Assembly: GCA_012522435.1 (NCBI GenBank)
Contig: JAAYKK010000083.1
Location: 1-33,799 of the forward strand
From: Clostridiaceae bacterium
GTDB lineage: Bacteria; Bacillota; Clostridia; Saccharofermentanales; DTU023
Direction: 5' to 3'
Length of the DNA: 33,799 nucleotides
Shown here: piece by piece, positions 71 to 6,310 of the stretch
How positions within the stretch are numbered: position 1 is the first letter of the stretch
How the letters are laid out: the number at the start of each line of letters is the position of its first letter
Translations under genes and position numbers: made by a program
The notes under the pieces: generated by a model
What the model was told of the DNA's origin: nothing
Database searches by the model: none
Seen by the model: only the letters and a program-made list of their open reading frames with translations

Positions 71-829
71 TTATACGCAGGTGTATCCACCGTCAATCGG
101 GAGAATGGCTCCAGTTACGTAGGAAGCTTCTTCACTACCTAAGAAAATTGCACCGGCATTAAGTTCGCCCGCATTTCCATAACGTCCTAAAGGCACAGTC
201 ATTTTCATATATGCGGTGAATTCATCAGTATTCAGAGTTTCTGATGTTAATTCAGTCTCAAAATAGCCCGGGCAGATACAGTTGCAGGTAACATTATATT
301 TTGCCAATTCAGCAGCAACAGCACGTGTAAAGTTTACAACGCCACCTTTTGATGTGTGATATGCCACTGTATCAATTGCAGTATTACCTACTAAACCATA
401 CATCGAAGAGATATTGATAATACGACCGTAGTTAGCATCTTTCATATATTTGCCAAAGGCACGTGTGACATAGAATACGCTAGACATATCTGTCTCAATG
501 GTAAAATCCCATTCTTCGTCAGTCATATCCAATACTCCGGCATTTGCTGCAGAACCGGCGCAATTAACTAAAACGTCAATTTTACCCATTTCTTCAAAAG
601 CTTCAACTGCTGCAGCATTTACGCTTTCAACATCAGTAACATCACAACGAATAGGCAGACATTTGACACCTTTCTTCTCAATATTTTTTGCTAATTCTTC
701 AAGTTTTTCCAACCTTCTCGCCATGATAACCATATCAGCGCCTTGATCCGAATAAGCATCCGCCATTTGTTTTCCTAATCCTGATGATGCTCCTGTAATA
801 ACTACTACTCTTCCTGTGTAATCAAACAT
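71..829 (-). CDS. SDR-family NAD(P)-dependent oxidoreductase
   Basis: Classical short-chain dehydrogenase/reductase of 252 aa, the usual length. Seen: N-terminal Rossmann motif TGASSGLG (about residues 12-19), NCAG (usual NNAG) near 90, the catalytic Ser in NISSMYG near 142, and YHTSK (Tyr/Lys pair) near 160, ending in the common GAILPIDGGYT segment. Such proteins reduce ketones or oxidise secondary alcohols with NAD(P)H in the cytosol. Overall look is closest to gluconate 5-dehydrogenase or FabG-like enzymes, but the substrate cannot be read from the sequence. The ATG is preceded by GGAAG at a good distance. It lies 133 bp downstream of the B12/opine-dehydrogenase pair on the same strand, so it may act on the same substrates, but an AT-rich spacer with an inverted repeat separates them. 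Family certain; substrate unknown. Confidence 0.88.
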   Translation of the reverse strand: MFDYTGRVVVITGASSGLGKQMADAYSDQGADMVIMARRLEKLEELAKNIEKKGVKCLPIRCDVTDVESVNAAAVEAFEEMGKIDVLVNCAGSAANAGVLDMTDEEWDFTIETDMSSVFYVTRAFGKYMKDANYGRIINISSMYGLVGNTAIDTVAYHTSKGGVVNFTRAVAAELAKYNVTCNCICPGYFETELTSETLNTDEFTAYMKMTVPLGRYGNAGELNAGAIFLGSEEASYVTGAILPIDGGYTCV

Positions 830-962: not shown

Positions 963-2870
963 TTAAGGTATTTCTTGATGCAAAGTTCTTTTTGCCGACC
1001 GAAGGTTGTCAACAGCTCTAGCTAAACGTTGTTCAATTTCTAGAATGCTACCATCAGCATCAACAACCTGCATTGATCCTCGGATCATTTTGGTTTGCCA
1101 ATTTATCGCATGATTAAACTTATCTTGATCACCCCAGAGATAGGGAACCGGAAAAAATCCTGAGGCAAATGCAAGATAGAAACCCTCAGGACTATAAAGA
1201 TCAGGAATGCTTTTTTCTAGAGCTTTGATTAAGAGTCTTGAATTTTGATAAAGATCCTCTTCCCGTTGATTCACTTCCGGATTTTTACTCTGATCATCTA
1301 TCAAACCTTTTAATCTTGCTTCTCGGTATTTTTCTATTGTATGTAAAGTGATTTGAATGCTTTCATTGATCACATCAGGAGTCGCTAAGTGTGAGGCTTC
1401 TGAATAACTAACGACATGTATTACATCGGGACTTGCCAGATTGCGAGGTTCAATATCATCCATCAGACAACTGACGGCAGCCAATTGTATTTTTGCTTGT
1501 TCCAAGTCAGGTTTGAAAAAATCTAAGCCTGCTCTTGGTTGAAAAACAATTCGAAAATTATCGTCTTCTAAAGAACGAACTAATCTTAATAAAGCTCTTG
1601 ATTTTGCAAGATCGTGAACACCCCAAGTACTTCTTGGTGTATTGAGCATATTTTGTAAAACAAAAGTTTTGATACCATAAAGCTTAGCCAATTTTGCAGC
1701 CAGATAAGCTACCACAATGTAAGTTAAATCATCTGCACCACGAAAAGCGAAATGATGTGAAACATTTGCTTCAAGAGGTTTATTAGTGGTTGCAATATAT
1801 TCAATAGTTTTGAAATGCTCTTTTAAGTTGGTATAAAGATCATAGGGTCCTCGATCATCAAGTTGATTGAACCACCATAAAGATAGTGCATGCCAAGAAA
1901 TATTGATTGTGTTTTCATACATTCTTGCTAACTGAGGAATATTTTTGGTACCGGCATAGGTCCGCATTAATAGAGGTCTTGCTTCTTCATATAAATAACG
2001 ATAATCTGCTTCGGAATTAACCGGAACACCGCCTCCATTTAACTTGCCTGACCAATTCTCAGCAAAATTGGACTGTGACAATTGAGAAGTCCCCAATGAT
2101 AAAATATCCAGCAAGCCTTTAGATGCTAGTTGTTTAATCCAGGATCCACATTCCAGAATTGCTTCTTCTTGTTTTTGTCCTGAATGATAAGGTCCTACAT
2201 GCGCTCTGATCAAAGGTCTTGTCTGGTGAGCGGATTGTTTTTTCGTAGCTTCCAGTCTCTTCAACAAAGTATCTTGACCGGTTCCAAATTCTAAATAATC
2301 ATTAGCTGATTTTGTGTCATAAGCTAGATATTCTTTTTTATAGATAACTTCTTCAGCAAATTGATGCAAATTATCATCATATTGGCTGACTTCTAGCATA
2401 TCTCGCGGAATAAGCTTAGCGGGCACTAACATCTTAGATAAGCTTTCAGCGATTGATTCCCCACCTTGAAAACAAGTAAAAATACCGGAGAAAGTTTTTT
2501 CAACTTTTCTACATGTTTCAGGTAAACCGCCAAAAAACAATAAATCAATTGGCCCATTTTGAAATTCTAAAAGACGCTCTTTTTTTAATTCTTCTAGGAG
2601 AAATCCCAACATATTAATTGCATCGGTATAATCTAAACGATAACTAATGCCTAAACGATTGATCTTGTTTTTTCGTAACCAATCTATAATCACTAATCTG
2701 GCAGAGCTGTCGTTGTAAAAGCTAAAAGCTTTTTGTATTCTTTCATCAGCTATCACAACTTCATAACCACATTCGGACAACAAACCTCCTGCGGTCTGCA
2801 AACCCATAGTATGAGCATCATTCGCCGGTTTGAGCAAACCGTAAACCGTCCTTAGATCAGACTGTCGCAT
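963..2870 (-). CDS. Cobalamin-binding mutase-like protein (B12 domain fused to a barrel domain)
   Basis: About 635 aa. The first ~140 residues carry the signature of base-off/His-on B12 domains (glutamate mutase S, methylmalonyl-CoA mutase type): D18-A-H20-T-M-G23 gives DxHxxG, with His20 the predicted lower Co ligand. It is followed by ISYRL near 75-79, FFGGLP near 110 and FQGGES near 133, matching the order of the S-L, GG and second glycine motifs. The remaining ~450 residues resemble the barrel subunit of glutamate mutase (GlmE-like; for example KLNGGGVPVNS and a VSHHFAFRGADD segment). A fused B12 domain plus barrel suggests a carbon-skeleton rearranging enzyme in one chain. The substrate is unknown to me. 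The gene overlaps the upstream opine-dehydrogenase-family gene. AGGAGG lies only 1 nt before the ATG at 2879 but 10 nt before the ATG at 2870, so 2870 is the better start. B12 binding is a strong call; the reaction is inference. Confidence 0.8.
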   Translation of the reverse strand: MRQSDLRTVYGLLKPANDAHTMGLQTAGGLLSECGYEVVIADERIQKAFSFYNDSSARLVIIDWLRKNKINRLGISYRLDYTDAINMLGFLLEELKKERLLEFQNGPIDLLFFGGLPETCRKVEKTFSGIFTCFQGGESIAESLSKMLVPAKLIPRDMLEVSQYDDNLHQFAEEVIYKKEYLAYDTKSANDYLEFGTGQDTLLKRLEATKKQSAHQTRPLIRAHVGPYHSGQKQEEAILECGSWIKQLASKGLLDILSLGTSQLSQSNFAENWSGKLNGGGVPVNSEADYRYLYEEARPLLMRTYAGTKNIPQLARMYENTINISWHALSLWWFNQLDDRGPYDLYTNLKEHFKTIEYIATTNKPLEANVSHHFAFRGADDLTYIVVAYLAAKLAKLYGIKTFVLQNMLNTPRSTWGVHDLAKSRALLRLVRSLEDDNFRIVFQPRAGLDFFKPDLEQAKIQLAAVSCLMDDIEPRNLASPDVIHVVSYSEASHLATPDVINESIQITLHTIEKYREARLKGLIDDQSKNPEVNQREEDLYQNSRLLIKALEKSIPDLYSPEGFYLAFASGFFPVPYLWGDQDKFNHAINWQTKMIRGSMQVVDADGSILEIEQRLARAVDNLRSAKRTLHQEIP

Positions 2871-3942
2871 CGGGGTCATCCCTCCTCACAAGCTTCTGCA
2901 AGATATCAGAAAATTCAATTTCCCGCAGGTATCTACCTCTTTCTCGAAAATTCTCATGCATTAACTTAGACGCCAGTTCAATGATTAAACCGGTATAACT
3001 CATATCAAGATTGAGTTTTTTGCCTAAAGCTTCCAGAGGAACTAATCCATATGGAATATCTTCATAAATATAACGATGTTTTAAAGTTGTAGGAGCATAT
3101 ATTTCAGAATATGCGTCTGTATTTTGAATTTTTTCATATAGATTATTGCCCAGAGATTTGTAACTGCGACTAACCCAATCACTTGTACTCTCGACCGGAA
3201 AATTCATAGCTTCGGATAAACGGATCCTCTCTCGATCCGTATTTTCCAAAAACTCTGCAATCCTGGGAGTTATCCCTTCATGATAATAAAGATAATTTGA
3301 AGATTGGTCTTCTGTTCGTCCACTGTTTAAGAGTAAAGGAGCACAATGTAGAATCATACCAACATTGCCAATGGAAGTTTGTATCATAGATGTAGCGGGT
3401 TGAAAATGTTTTTGTAAATCTAAAGGCAACCTTGAACAAATTTCCTGATTGCTCAGTTCACCCAGACCGGCTAAGTAAACAGCTTCTTTTATCGCATATA
3501 AATGGGTTCGATCCTCAGAAATTTTTCTACAAGTATGAAATACTGTTTGAGCTTCAGTAATAATCGGCTTAGATAAATTGCTACCCTGATTATAGTAATG
3601 GTCAAATTCAATTGCACCGCATGTTCTGCCGGGACTCAAGATGACAATTGCATCAGTTTGTAATGATTTGCTAAATTGGAACGCTAACTCGCGATGAGAA
3701 AATGCAGGCGTAGTAACTATCACAAGTTCAGGTTCTGCTAAAGCTTGATTCAAATCGGATGTTGCTTCCTTGATCTGAGCTTCCCCTTCAATTTGACCCT
3801 CGATAAAGATTTTTTTTGTTTGTTTGATCTTTTTTATATTATCTTCTGTGCGATTCCAAAGAATAATTTCATGACCTGCAAGTGCTAAATCAGCTGCCAT
3901 TGTTAAACCTGAATTTCCGGCACCTATTACTGTAATTTTCAT
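2857..3942 (-). CDS. NAD(P)-dependent opine/octopine-dehydrogenase family protein
   Basis: 361 aa. N-terminal Rossmann domain with GAGNSG (residues 7-12) and a basic residue after the second strand (WNRTEDN), compatible with NADP(H). The C-terminal half is the octopine/nopaline dehydrogenase domain, with N193-VGMIL-H199 where the family has its catalytic His. Family members reductively condense an amino acid with a 2-keto acid, or the reverse. The ATG follows AGGGGA at a good spacing. Its 3' end overlaps the B12-mutase gene by 14 nt (23 nt if the upstream ATG of that gene is used), so the two are almost certainly translated from one mRNA. That coupling suggests one protein makes or consumes the substrate of the other. 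A true opine substrate is not shown; other 2-hydroxy or amino acids are possible. Confidence 0.83.
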   Translation of the reverse strand: MKITVIGAGNSGLTMAADLALAGHEIILWNRTEDNIKKIKQTKKIFIEGQIEGEAQIKEATSDLNQALAEPELVIVTTPAFSHRELAFQFSKSLQTDAIVILSPGRTCGAIEFDHYYNQGSNLSKPIITEAQTVFHTCRKISEDRTHLYAIKEAVYLAGLGELSNQEICSRLPLDLQKHFQPATSMIQTSIGNVGMILHCAPLLLNSGRTEDQSSNYLYYHEGITPRIAEFLENTDRERIRLSEAMNFPVESTSDWVSRSYKSLGNNLYEKIQNTDAYSEIYAPTTLKHRYIYEDIPYGLVPLEALGKKLNLDMSYTGLIIELASKLMHENFRERGRYLREIEFSDILQKLVRRDDPDATV

Positions 3943-4247: not shown

Positions 4248-5915
4248 TTAAATACTGCCCTCTCTTAAATACAAAAACAGTTTGGGCACAACTTGGTTTT
4301 TTCTTGAAACAATTCCTTCTTGAAATGTATTTTTTTCTCCGTCTGCATTAGGAAAAATCAGAGGCAAAACATCTTTTCCCGGTCCCGCAGCATAAAAGAC
4401 CGAGCCGTTATCTCTGGCTGAAGTAAACATTATGAGCCAAAGATAAGCATTTTTGTTGGCGGCATATTGCTCCATCACCTTGACTAATTCTTCTTCCAGA
4501 GCATTAGTCTCGTTCAGGCGATACATTGTATATTGTGAGATAATAATATTTCGTTCTGCAACAGTATAATTCTTTACATCAAATTCCAACAATTTGCCGA
4601 GATCTTTTAATAAATCTACCGAGCTTGCTTTAAATATATCTCGAGCTAATAAATCAATATTTTGCTCAGCATACTCTGCTAAATGTTGAGCAATCTTTTT
4701 ATCTTCTTCGGTTGTTGTCGGAGATTTGAAATTCAAAGTATCTGCAATAATTGCTGACAATAACAATCCCGCCACATCCCAATCCGGTTTTACGTTCTGC
4801 TCAATAAATAGTTTAGCAATAATGGTTGCTGTTGCACCTAAAGGCTCATTTCTAAAAGAAACCGGTTTATCTGAAGTCAAATCTCCTAGACGATGATGAT
4901 CAATAATTTCTACTATTTCTGCCTTTTCAATATTTGGTACGGACTGAATTGCTTCATTATGATCAAGTAACACAAAACGACGTTTGGGAGCATTAAGCAA
5001 GCGATATCGTGAAGTTAAGCCCATAACCCGATTCTCCTGATCGACAATCGGATATGCACGGTGTCTGGTTCGCATCATTTTGGCTTTTGCATCCTCAACA
5101 AATTCCTGCTCATTGAATACAACTAAATCTTTCCCCATGATTAATTGGACGGGAATAGAATAATATAAAAAACGGCTGGTATTCATAGCACCGTGACCGG
5201 AGAGAATTATAGCGCATTGATTTTTCTTTGCTTCATTCAAGACCATAGGTGCAATTTCTTTGGTCCAGACTAAAAGCAGAACAGCAGCACCTTTACGAAT
5301 AGCCTCCAGTTGAAAGTTAGTATCGTTTCCCATAATTACAATACGATCTTCTAAATCATAAAACTTCAAATTATTTGCTGATAAAGCAAGGATACTAACT
5401 TTACCGTTATGATGAGACTTAGCAGGAGCATAATATAATTTACCGTCAATTGCTCTGGCAATATTTTCGATAGGAGTTTTAGCCAAGAGATCAATCGATC
5501 TTGATGTATCATGTAAAACCGTTTCGCCAATTGAAGAATTAGTTACTATACCTAATAGGCGGTCTCTTTTATCTTGTACAGTAAATACCTTATGTTGTTC
5601 ATCGAAACGTTGAATAACATCGCGCAGCATAGAATCCTTAGACACTCTGTTTGAGTCATCCATCACGGTTTCATCAAGCTGTGACCTTGCATCCTTGATT
5701 CTTAAGGGAAAAGGTTGATTAAACTTCTTTAATAAAAATTTGGACTCGCTCGAGAGCTCATCCAAATAGCAAGCCACAACATTATATCCTTGTTTTTGTT
5801 TGAGGTGAGCATAACCTATTGCAGAAGCAATACTGTCAGTATCGGGATGGCGATGACCTACAGCATAAACAATGCCCCCGCCACCATATTCTCTGTACAA
5901 ATAATCTGTAGACAT
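4248..5915 (-). CDS. ppaC: Manganese-dependent family II inorganic pyrophosphatase with CBS and DRTGG domains
   Basis: Hydrolyses pyrophosphate to two phosphates in the cytosol. 555 aa, far longer than the ~310 aa of a plain family II enzyme, because a regulatory block is inserted. Seen: the DHH-type metal motif GHRHPDTDS at residues 20-28, then CBS (about 85-135), DRTGG-like (about 140-245) and CBS (about 255-310), then DHNE near 333, DHHRLGD near 355, and a C-terminal DHHA2 domain. Characterised clostridial CBS-PPases of this layout are inhibited by AMP/ADP and activated by ATP or diadenosine polyphosphates; that this copy behaves so is inference from the domains. ATG with AGGGAAATC upstream. 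It appears monocistronic, with the tRNA terminator just upstream and a possible terminator downstream. Confidence 0.93.
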   Translation of the reverse strand: MSTDYLYREYGGGGIVYAVGHRHPDTDSIASAIGYAHLKQKQGYNVVACYLDELSSESKFLLKKFNQPFPLRIKDARSQLDETVMDDSNRVSKDSMLRDVIQRFDEQHKVFTVQDKRDRLLGIVTNSSIGETVLHDTSRSIDLLAKTPIENIARAIDGKLYYAPAKSHHNGKVSILALSANNLKFYDLEDRIVIMGNDTNFQLEAIRKGAAVLLLVWTKEIAPMVLNEAKKNQCAIILSGHGAMNTSRFLYYSIPVQLIMGKDLVVFNEQEFVEDAKAKMMRTRHRAYPIVDQENRVMGLTSRYRLLNAPKRRFVLLDHNEAIQSVPNIEKAEIVEIIDHHRLGDLTSDKPVSFRNEPLGATATIIAKLFIEQNVKPDWDVAGLLLSAIIADTLNFKSPTTTEEDKKIAQHLAEYAEQNIDLLARDIFKASSVDLLKDLGKLLEFDVKNYTVAERNIIISQYTMYRLNETNALEEELVKVMEQYAANKNAYLWLIMFTSARDNGSVFYAAGPGKDVLPLIFPNADGEKNTFQEGIVSRKNQVVPKLFLYLREGSI

Positions 5916-6059: not shown

Positions 6060-6135
6060 TGGTTGCGGGGGCAGGATTCGAACCTGCGACCTCCGGGTTA
6101 TGAGCCCGACAAGCTACCAGCTGCTCCACCCCGCG
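6060..6135 (-). tRNA. Initiator tRNA-fMet (CAT)
   Basis: 76-nt cloverleaf including an encoded CCA end (6060-6062). The anticodon CAT sits in a loop on a stem with three G:C pairs (CGGG/CCCG). Position 1 is C and position 72 is A, so the first acceptor pair is mismatched. Both features mark a bacterial initiator rather than an elongator tRNA-Met. The T-arm GGTTCGAATCC is intact. Confidence 0.95.
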
Positions 6136-6221
6136 ATATATTAATTGATCGATTCTATCTTCTGCTTATTAACTAAGTTCAAATTGGAATCTACACTTGA
6201 TCGAGAACAAACTTTTTTATT

Positions 6222-6310
6222 TGGTGCTCGTGGCCGGACTCGAACCGGCACGAATGTTTAAGTTCGACGGATTTTAAGTCCGTTGCGTCTGCCAGTTCCG
6301 CCACACGAGC
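6222..6310 (-). tRNA. tRNA-Leu (TAA)
   Basis: 89 nt with encoded CCA. The acceptor stem GCTCGTG/CACGAGC is perfect, the anticodon loop CTTAAAA gives TAA, and a long variable arm typical of class II leucine tRNAs is present. The T-arm GGTTCGAGTCC is intact. It is the first gene of a two-tRNA transcript with tRNA-fMet. Confidence 0.95.

Follow-up and report, generated by a model that had tools for sequence, protein, structure and literature searches.

We found that an opine-dehydrogenase-family gene (ODH) and a gene predicted to code for a B12-binding domain fused to a glutamate-mutase-type barrel (MUT) form an overlapping pair that is co-conserved far beyond chance. The pair was examined in a window, meaning the whole stretch of 33,799 nucleotides of Clostridiaceae bacterium contig JAAYKK010000083.1 that was analysed, and in the genomes of its relatives; by computation we could show which domains the proteins contain, what fold MUT has, that the B12 His and Gly and the catalytic residues of ODH are conserved, and that the two genes are inherited together. 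The two proteins probably act as a two-step module of an adenosylcobalamin (AdoCbl)-dependent radical mutase and an NAD(P)H-dependent C-N oxidoreductase, which would make an unusual amino acid for the cell envelope.

Organisation of the gene pair

The following features were assigned in and next to the pair:

2857..3942, minus strand: ODH, opine-dehydrogenase-family gene, 361 aa (PF02317 and CENDH 1bg6 matches, invariant catalytic residues)
963..2879, minus strand: MUT, predicted B12-domain and glutamate-mutase-type barrel gene, 638 aa (from ATG 2879) or 635 aa (from ATG 2870)
2430..2846, minus strand: predicted N-terminal B12-binding Rossmann domain of MUT, approximately residues 12-150 (PF02310, model)
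2802..2819, minus strand: D21-x-H23-x-x-G26 base-off cobalamin motif of MUT (alignment of 36 members)
966..2225, minus strand: predicted TIM barrel of the glutamate-mutase type in MUT, with the C-terminal extension, approximately residues 219-638 (hhalign, Foldseek)
2881..2886, minus strand: AGGAGG ribosome-binding site for MUT, within the 3' end of ODH (sequence)
71..829, minus strand: short-chain dehydrogenase (SDR), downstream of MUT

Translation of MUT from ATG 2879 gives 638 aa and an overlap of 23 nt with ODH. The AGGAGG box (2886-2881) lies 1 nt ahead of this codon and 10 nt ahead of ATG 2870, and since this spacing favours the latter, MUT likely starts at ATG 2870 (635 aa, 14-nt overlap). 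The overlap of 14-23 nt reported in the initial annotation was thus correct for the two possible starts, as was its remark that no B12 riboswitch is nearby: a cobalamin riboswitch was looked for near the pair and none was found in the whole window. Two cobalamin riboswitches were present elsewhere in the genome. Promoter and terminator scans gave signals no better than those of shuffled sequences. The SDR gene is separated from MUT by a 133-nt AT-rich gap and adjoins the pair only within the window's genus; its membership in the pathway is doubtful. Two tRNA genes were also observed on the minus strand (6063-6310), upstream of a pyrophosphatase-like gene (4248-5915).

Co-inheritance of MUT and ODH

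We searched 398 Bacillota-type genomes, drawn evenly from the phylum, with a profile of 14 MUT relatives (A1), and ODH matches with E <= 1e-30 were counted as strong. MUT was detected in 86 of the 398 genomes (roughly a fifth). A strong ODH was present in 85 of these 86, against 24 of the 312 genomes without MUT, and in 81 of the 86 the two genes lay within 3.6 kb of each other. The remaining five MUT genomes had no adjacent ODH, and at least one of these cases was at a contig end. Among close relatives, ODH was found in all 17 genomes with MUT and in 1 of the 22 without it, and at the loci of these relatives it was located immediately upstream of MUT. The same order was found in two rumen MAGs labelled Prevotella/Prevotellaceae, with an ODH only about 30% identical; the pair is adjacent across two phyla. 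Pairwise MUT and ODH distances were also correlated (r = 0.84, a value reached in 0 of 2000 permutations; r = 0.74 within the short clade), a correlation that partly reflects species phylogeny. The plasmid search recovered no copy of the pair. Co-conservation, whose absence the initial annotation would have taken as a refutation, was therefore borne out across genomes.

It seems very improbable to us that the two genes are linked while their enzymes serve different metabolites or regulation. A common operon is not in itself proof of a common pathway, and the five MUT genomes without an adjacent ODH would fit such hitch-hiking, but the near-complete co-occurrence, the joint presence or absence in close relatives and the adjacency in both phyla argue against it.

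For comparison, proteins over the MutE cut-off were found in 78 of 299 genomes in the same kind of even Bacillota draw; a few of the proteins counted belong to the MUT family itself. The MUT family is thus nearly as common in such draws as MutE-type proteins.

The opine dehydrogenase

ODH matched PF02317 (E 5.2e-40) and was similar over its full length to CENDH (PDB 1bg6, E 9e-52). Its Rossmann GxGxxG motif corresponds to residues 7-12 and the Octopine_DH helical domain to residues 183-328. Residues N193, H199, R290 and D295 were invariant in all 44 aligned ODHs and line up with the CENDH catalytic set, whose catalytic roles we take from general knowledge of the family. Judged from its sequence, ODH is a catalytically intact opine-dehydrogenase-family enzyme, and N30-R31 after strand 2 suggests NADPH rather than NADH as its cofactor. 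We also observed a second opine dehydrogenase clade in relatives, unlinked to a B12 mutase (L133:3831-4913, L134:4899-5999 and L135:3150-4613). By eye, the second-clade gene adjoins an ATP-grasp-like gene in L133 and L135 and lies near CRISPR-Cas genes in L134.

Domain architecture and fold of MUT

Searches of Pfam, NCBIfam and PDB with the single MUT sequence gave nothing useful: the mutase barrel had no Pfam match and the B12 domain was hit only at E = 0.095. The profile of the window's own clade had no match in PDB. Because single-sequence searches were nearly blind, the barrel was identified through relatives and structure. Several short-type relatives scored above the Pfam cut-offs of B12-binding as well as Met_asp_mut_E, and hhalign matched a 36-member alignment (A3) to 24 true MutE proteins across 344 columns (E 8.2e-6); the window's clade alone matched MutE weakly (E 0.044). 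The AlphaFold (AF2) model of MUT (pLDDT 89.3, pTM 0.90) found glutamate mutase GlmE (1cb7_B, E 6e-10) as its best Foldseek match in PDB, followed by ornithine 4,5-aminomutase (5e-9), lysine 5,6-aminomutase (1.6e-8) and then the isobutyryl-CoA mutase IcmF. The glutamate-mutase-like barrel proposed in the initial annotation was accordingly recovered by three routes, namely Pfam on short-type relatives, hhalign and Foldseek, and no non-mutase family aligned better. On this sequence and model evidence we assign to MUT, in one chain, a Rossmann domain that binds B12 and, after it, a barrel of the glutamate-mutase type.

Most of the 86 MUT genomes carry a short type of about 550 aa. The long subfamily, to which the window belongs, has diverged from the short type, with which it shares 30% identity on average; its members are about 75 aa longer and have the canonical DxHxxG motif. 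In one relative (L083; G276:C7:82471-84341) the mutase was split into two overlapping ORFs of 395 and 244 aa, by a frameshift or a genuine subunit split. Finally, the f36 genomes G168, G212, G315, G390 and G438 had strong ODH matches and no match to the MUT family; divergent MutE-like proteins (PF06368, E ~1e-60) were found in G168, G212, G390 and G438, and weakly matching 558-aa frames in G315 and G390. These genomes possibly hold a further orphan GlmE-like family.

The B12 domain

PF02310 was detected in 13 of the 14 members of the A1 profile at E < 1 (best 8.2e-5), and strands and helices alternate in the N-terminal region of the MUT model. The motif residues are D21, H23 and G26 when counted from ATG 2879, and D18, H20 and G23 when counted from ATG 2870. 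The D18-x-H20-xx-G23 motif of the initial annotation was therefore confirmed in MUT itself. Across homologues the HxxG part is kept, all 36 aligned sequences having both H23 and G26, and the Asp is lost from most short-type relatives. Overall, this position was Asp in 19 and Cys in 17 of the 36 sequences: Asp was invariant in the long type (15/15), and Cys occupied it in 17 of the 21 short-type members. With Cys in place of Asp (e.g. L036:1480-3141), the lower-ligand motif is unusual among B12 domains.

AdoCbl can be formed by the window's organism, since its genome encodes a CobA/BtuR adenosyltransferase, a finding that is permissive only for the use of AdoCbl by MUT.

The predicted active site

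In glutamate mutase, R66, R149 and E171 of GlmE hold the glycyl part of the substrate, and R100 and Y177 hold the acrylate part (PMC10947579). With both the A3 and A4 alignments, hhalign placed GlmE R66 on MUT H227 and R149 on Y308; with A3 only, R100 fell on Q269. At the arginine claw R66/R100/R149, the MUT family thus has H, Q and Y, invariant or near-invariant. Two invariant arginines, R225 and R306, lie two residues upstream of H227 and Y308 on the same strands. G229 is aligned to G68 of GlmE, the residue that holds the adenosyl group through its backbone. The positions of E171 and Y177 had no reliable alignment in the MUT family. Because the arginine claw is replaced by H227/Q269/Y308, the substrate-binding site of MUT appears from the alignments to be rebuilt relative to GlmE, with the adenosyl-holding G229 kept.

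Two assignments to known enzymes were rejected. MUT is not a glutamate mutase proper, as R66/R100/R149 are not kept. Nor is it a PLP aminomutase: the PLP-lysine of B12 aminomutases sits in their B12 domain, and no Lys was conserved in at least 29 of the 36 members among MUT residues 1-398.

Genes surrounding the pair

GlmL is an accessory protein of glutamate mutase. GlmL-family proteins adjoined the pair at four loci (L069, L070, L079 and L080); the L079 protein scored above the NCBIfam cut-off for the GlmL equivalog. In two genomes (L081 and L100) GlmL was fused to the MUT C-terminus. The MutL matches of the GlmL-type proteins reached E 1e-144 to 1e-168. The MUT-GlmL (MutL) fusions (L081:7306-11007 and L100:1739-5383) are 1214-1233 aa long and have ODH upstream; oligopeptide-ABC-transporter-like genes were observed nearby. 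In the window's own genome nothing was over the GlmL cut-off.

These associations bear on whether MUT could instead be a B12-dependent methyltransferase, with a corrinoid domain and a methyl-donor barrel and no radical chemistry. Taken alone, the B12 domain leans weakly to NCBIfam methyltransferase corrinoid proteins (MtgC, pyl_corrinoid, MtaC), and a 2009 paper compared the family with COG5012 (PMC2667541). We nevertheless consider this reading improbable, because the barrel matches are AdoCbl mutases, with BHMT reaching only E 3e-3, and because GlmL adjacent or fused to MUT favours glutamate-mutase-like B12 chemistry over methyl transfer.

Amino-acid ligases recurred, in unrelated families, at one to three genes from the pair:

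Asparagine synthase (AsnB): 6 loci (L067, L071, L072, L075, L091, L102)
Ddl-like ligase: 6 loci (L080, L084, L093, L094, L096, L098)
MurD-type ligase: 2 loci (L079, L093)
ATP-grasp ligase, inside surface-glycan clusters: 3 loci (L030, L031, L076)

Ligases were tested by HMM in L091 and L071 (AsnB), L080, L098 and L094 (Ddl), L093 (MurD), and L030 and L076 (ATP-grasp); the remaining ones were assigned by sequence clustering. No ligase neighbour was found next to the window's own pair or the pairs of its genus. In the two rumen MAGs (L030 and L031), the pair is surrounded by genes for a DegT aminotransferase, flippase-like and glycosyltransferase-like proteins and the ATP-grasp ligase, which suggests that it was transferred from Bacillota and is used in glycan decoration.

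The ligase neighbours make envelope biosynthesis the likelier role than fermentation. A catabolic module, as in ornithine and lysine fermentation, would use an aminomutase to shift an amino group and a dehydrogenase to deaminate the product oxidatively. From general knowledge of that family, the Ora/Ord system has the same architecture (a B12 mutase, an NAD(P) dehydrogenase and a GlmL-like protein). The ornithine and lysine aminomutase barrels (OAM and LAM) are the next-best folds of the MUT model, and the nearest relatives of the window are labelled as Clostridiaceae MAGs. Against this stand the B12 domain of MUT, which has no conserved PLP-holding lysine, and the ligases and amidotransferases beside the pair, and we regard catabolism as unlikely.

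Proposed function

For the biosynthetic module that we favour, MUT would be a single-chain AdoCbl-dependent radical mutase with the glutamate-mutase fold, binding cobalamin base-off via H23. Inside the barrel, the 5'-deoxyadenosyl radical would remove a hydrogen from an amino-acid-like substrate, one of whose groups would then move to the adjacent carbon. ODH would act on a C-N bond of that metabolite, reducing or oxidising it in an NAD(P)H-linked step that either precedes or follows the rearrangement. We infer that the cofactor chemistry is that of AdoCbl and not of methylcobalamin, that the two enzymes act in sequence, as the initial annotation had also supposed, and that the direction is biosynthetic; the module would most likely make an unusual amino acid, which in other bacteria may be passed to cell-envelope ligases or amidotransferases (Ddl-like, AsnB, ATP-grasp, MurD-type). 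It is a more tentative suggestion that, in anaerobic Bacillota and some Bacteroidota, AdoCbl rearrangement and opine-type C-N chemistry might together place a new amino acid on peptidoglycan precursors, dipeptides or surface glycans. To our knowledge, AdoCbl radical mutases of known reaction are few, and the pair is a widespread candidate B12 pathway, with a good chance that either its B12 reaction or a cell-envelope amino acid made by it proves to be new.

Comparison with known systems

Zhang, Rodionov, Gelfand and Gladyshev (BMC Genomics 2009, 10:78; PMC2667541) predicted a B12-dependent family in 11 genomes, with an N-terminal distant B12 domain and "always adjacent" to a pfam02317 octopine/nopaline dehydrogenase. 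In several genomes the neighbourhood also included Ddl and asparagine synthase. The family was compared there with COG5012, and its barrel and reaction were left unassigned (PMC2667541). Our literature searches for a later function of the pair found only this prediction. The description of the pair as uncharacterised in the initial annotation therefore holds for its reaction, for which no assignment was found, but not for the pairing, which had been predicted in 2009 with the same neighbours.

MUT shares with the 2009 family the N-terminal B12 domain and the adjacent pfam02317 dehydrogenase, in the window as in 81 of the 86 MUT genomes. Ddl and asparagine synthase are near some short-type relatives too and absent beside the window's own pair, which belongs to the diverged long subfamily. 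The short type is very likely the 2009 family, as judged from identical gene context and not from sequences. New here are the assignment of the barrel to a fold and superfamily, the quantified co-occurrence, the GlmL link with its fusions and the active-site differences, together with the long subfamily that includes the window, the reach into rumen Prevotella glycan clusters and the recurrent amino-acid-ligase neighbours. With its fixed pair of genes, a fold that is now defined, an active site whose changes are mapped and neighbouring ligases, the module brings a 17-year-old prediction within direct reach of biochemical testing.

Among characterised enzymes, CENDH (N-(1-D-carboxyethyl)-L-norvaline dehydrogenase) is a full-length homologue of ODH with matching catalytic His, Arg and Asp. 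Ornithine 4,5-aminomutase and lysine 5,6-aminomutase share the B12 mutase barrel fold with MUT and, in the amino-acid pathways they belong to, also have an NAD(P) dehydrogenase as partner; unlike them, MUT has no conserved PLP-lysine in its B12 domain. Glutamate mutase (GlmS and GlmE, or MutS/MutE) likewise combines a B12 Rossmann domain with the same barrel fold, and some MUT members share its association with GlmL. In contrast to its separate B12-carrying S subunit, MUT is a single chain with the B12 domain fused N-terminally, and its partner is an opine dehydrogenase.
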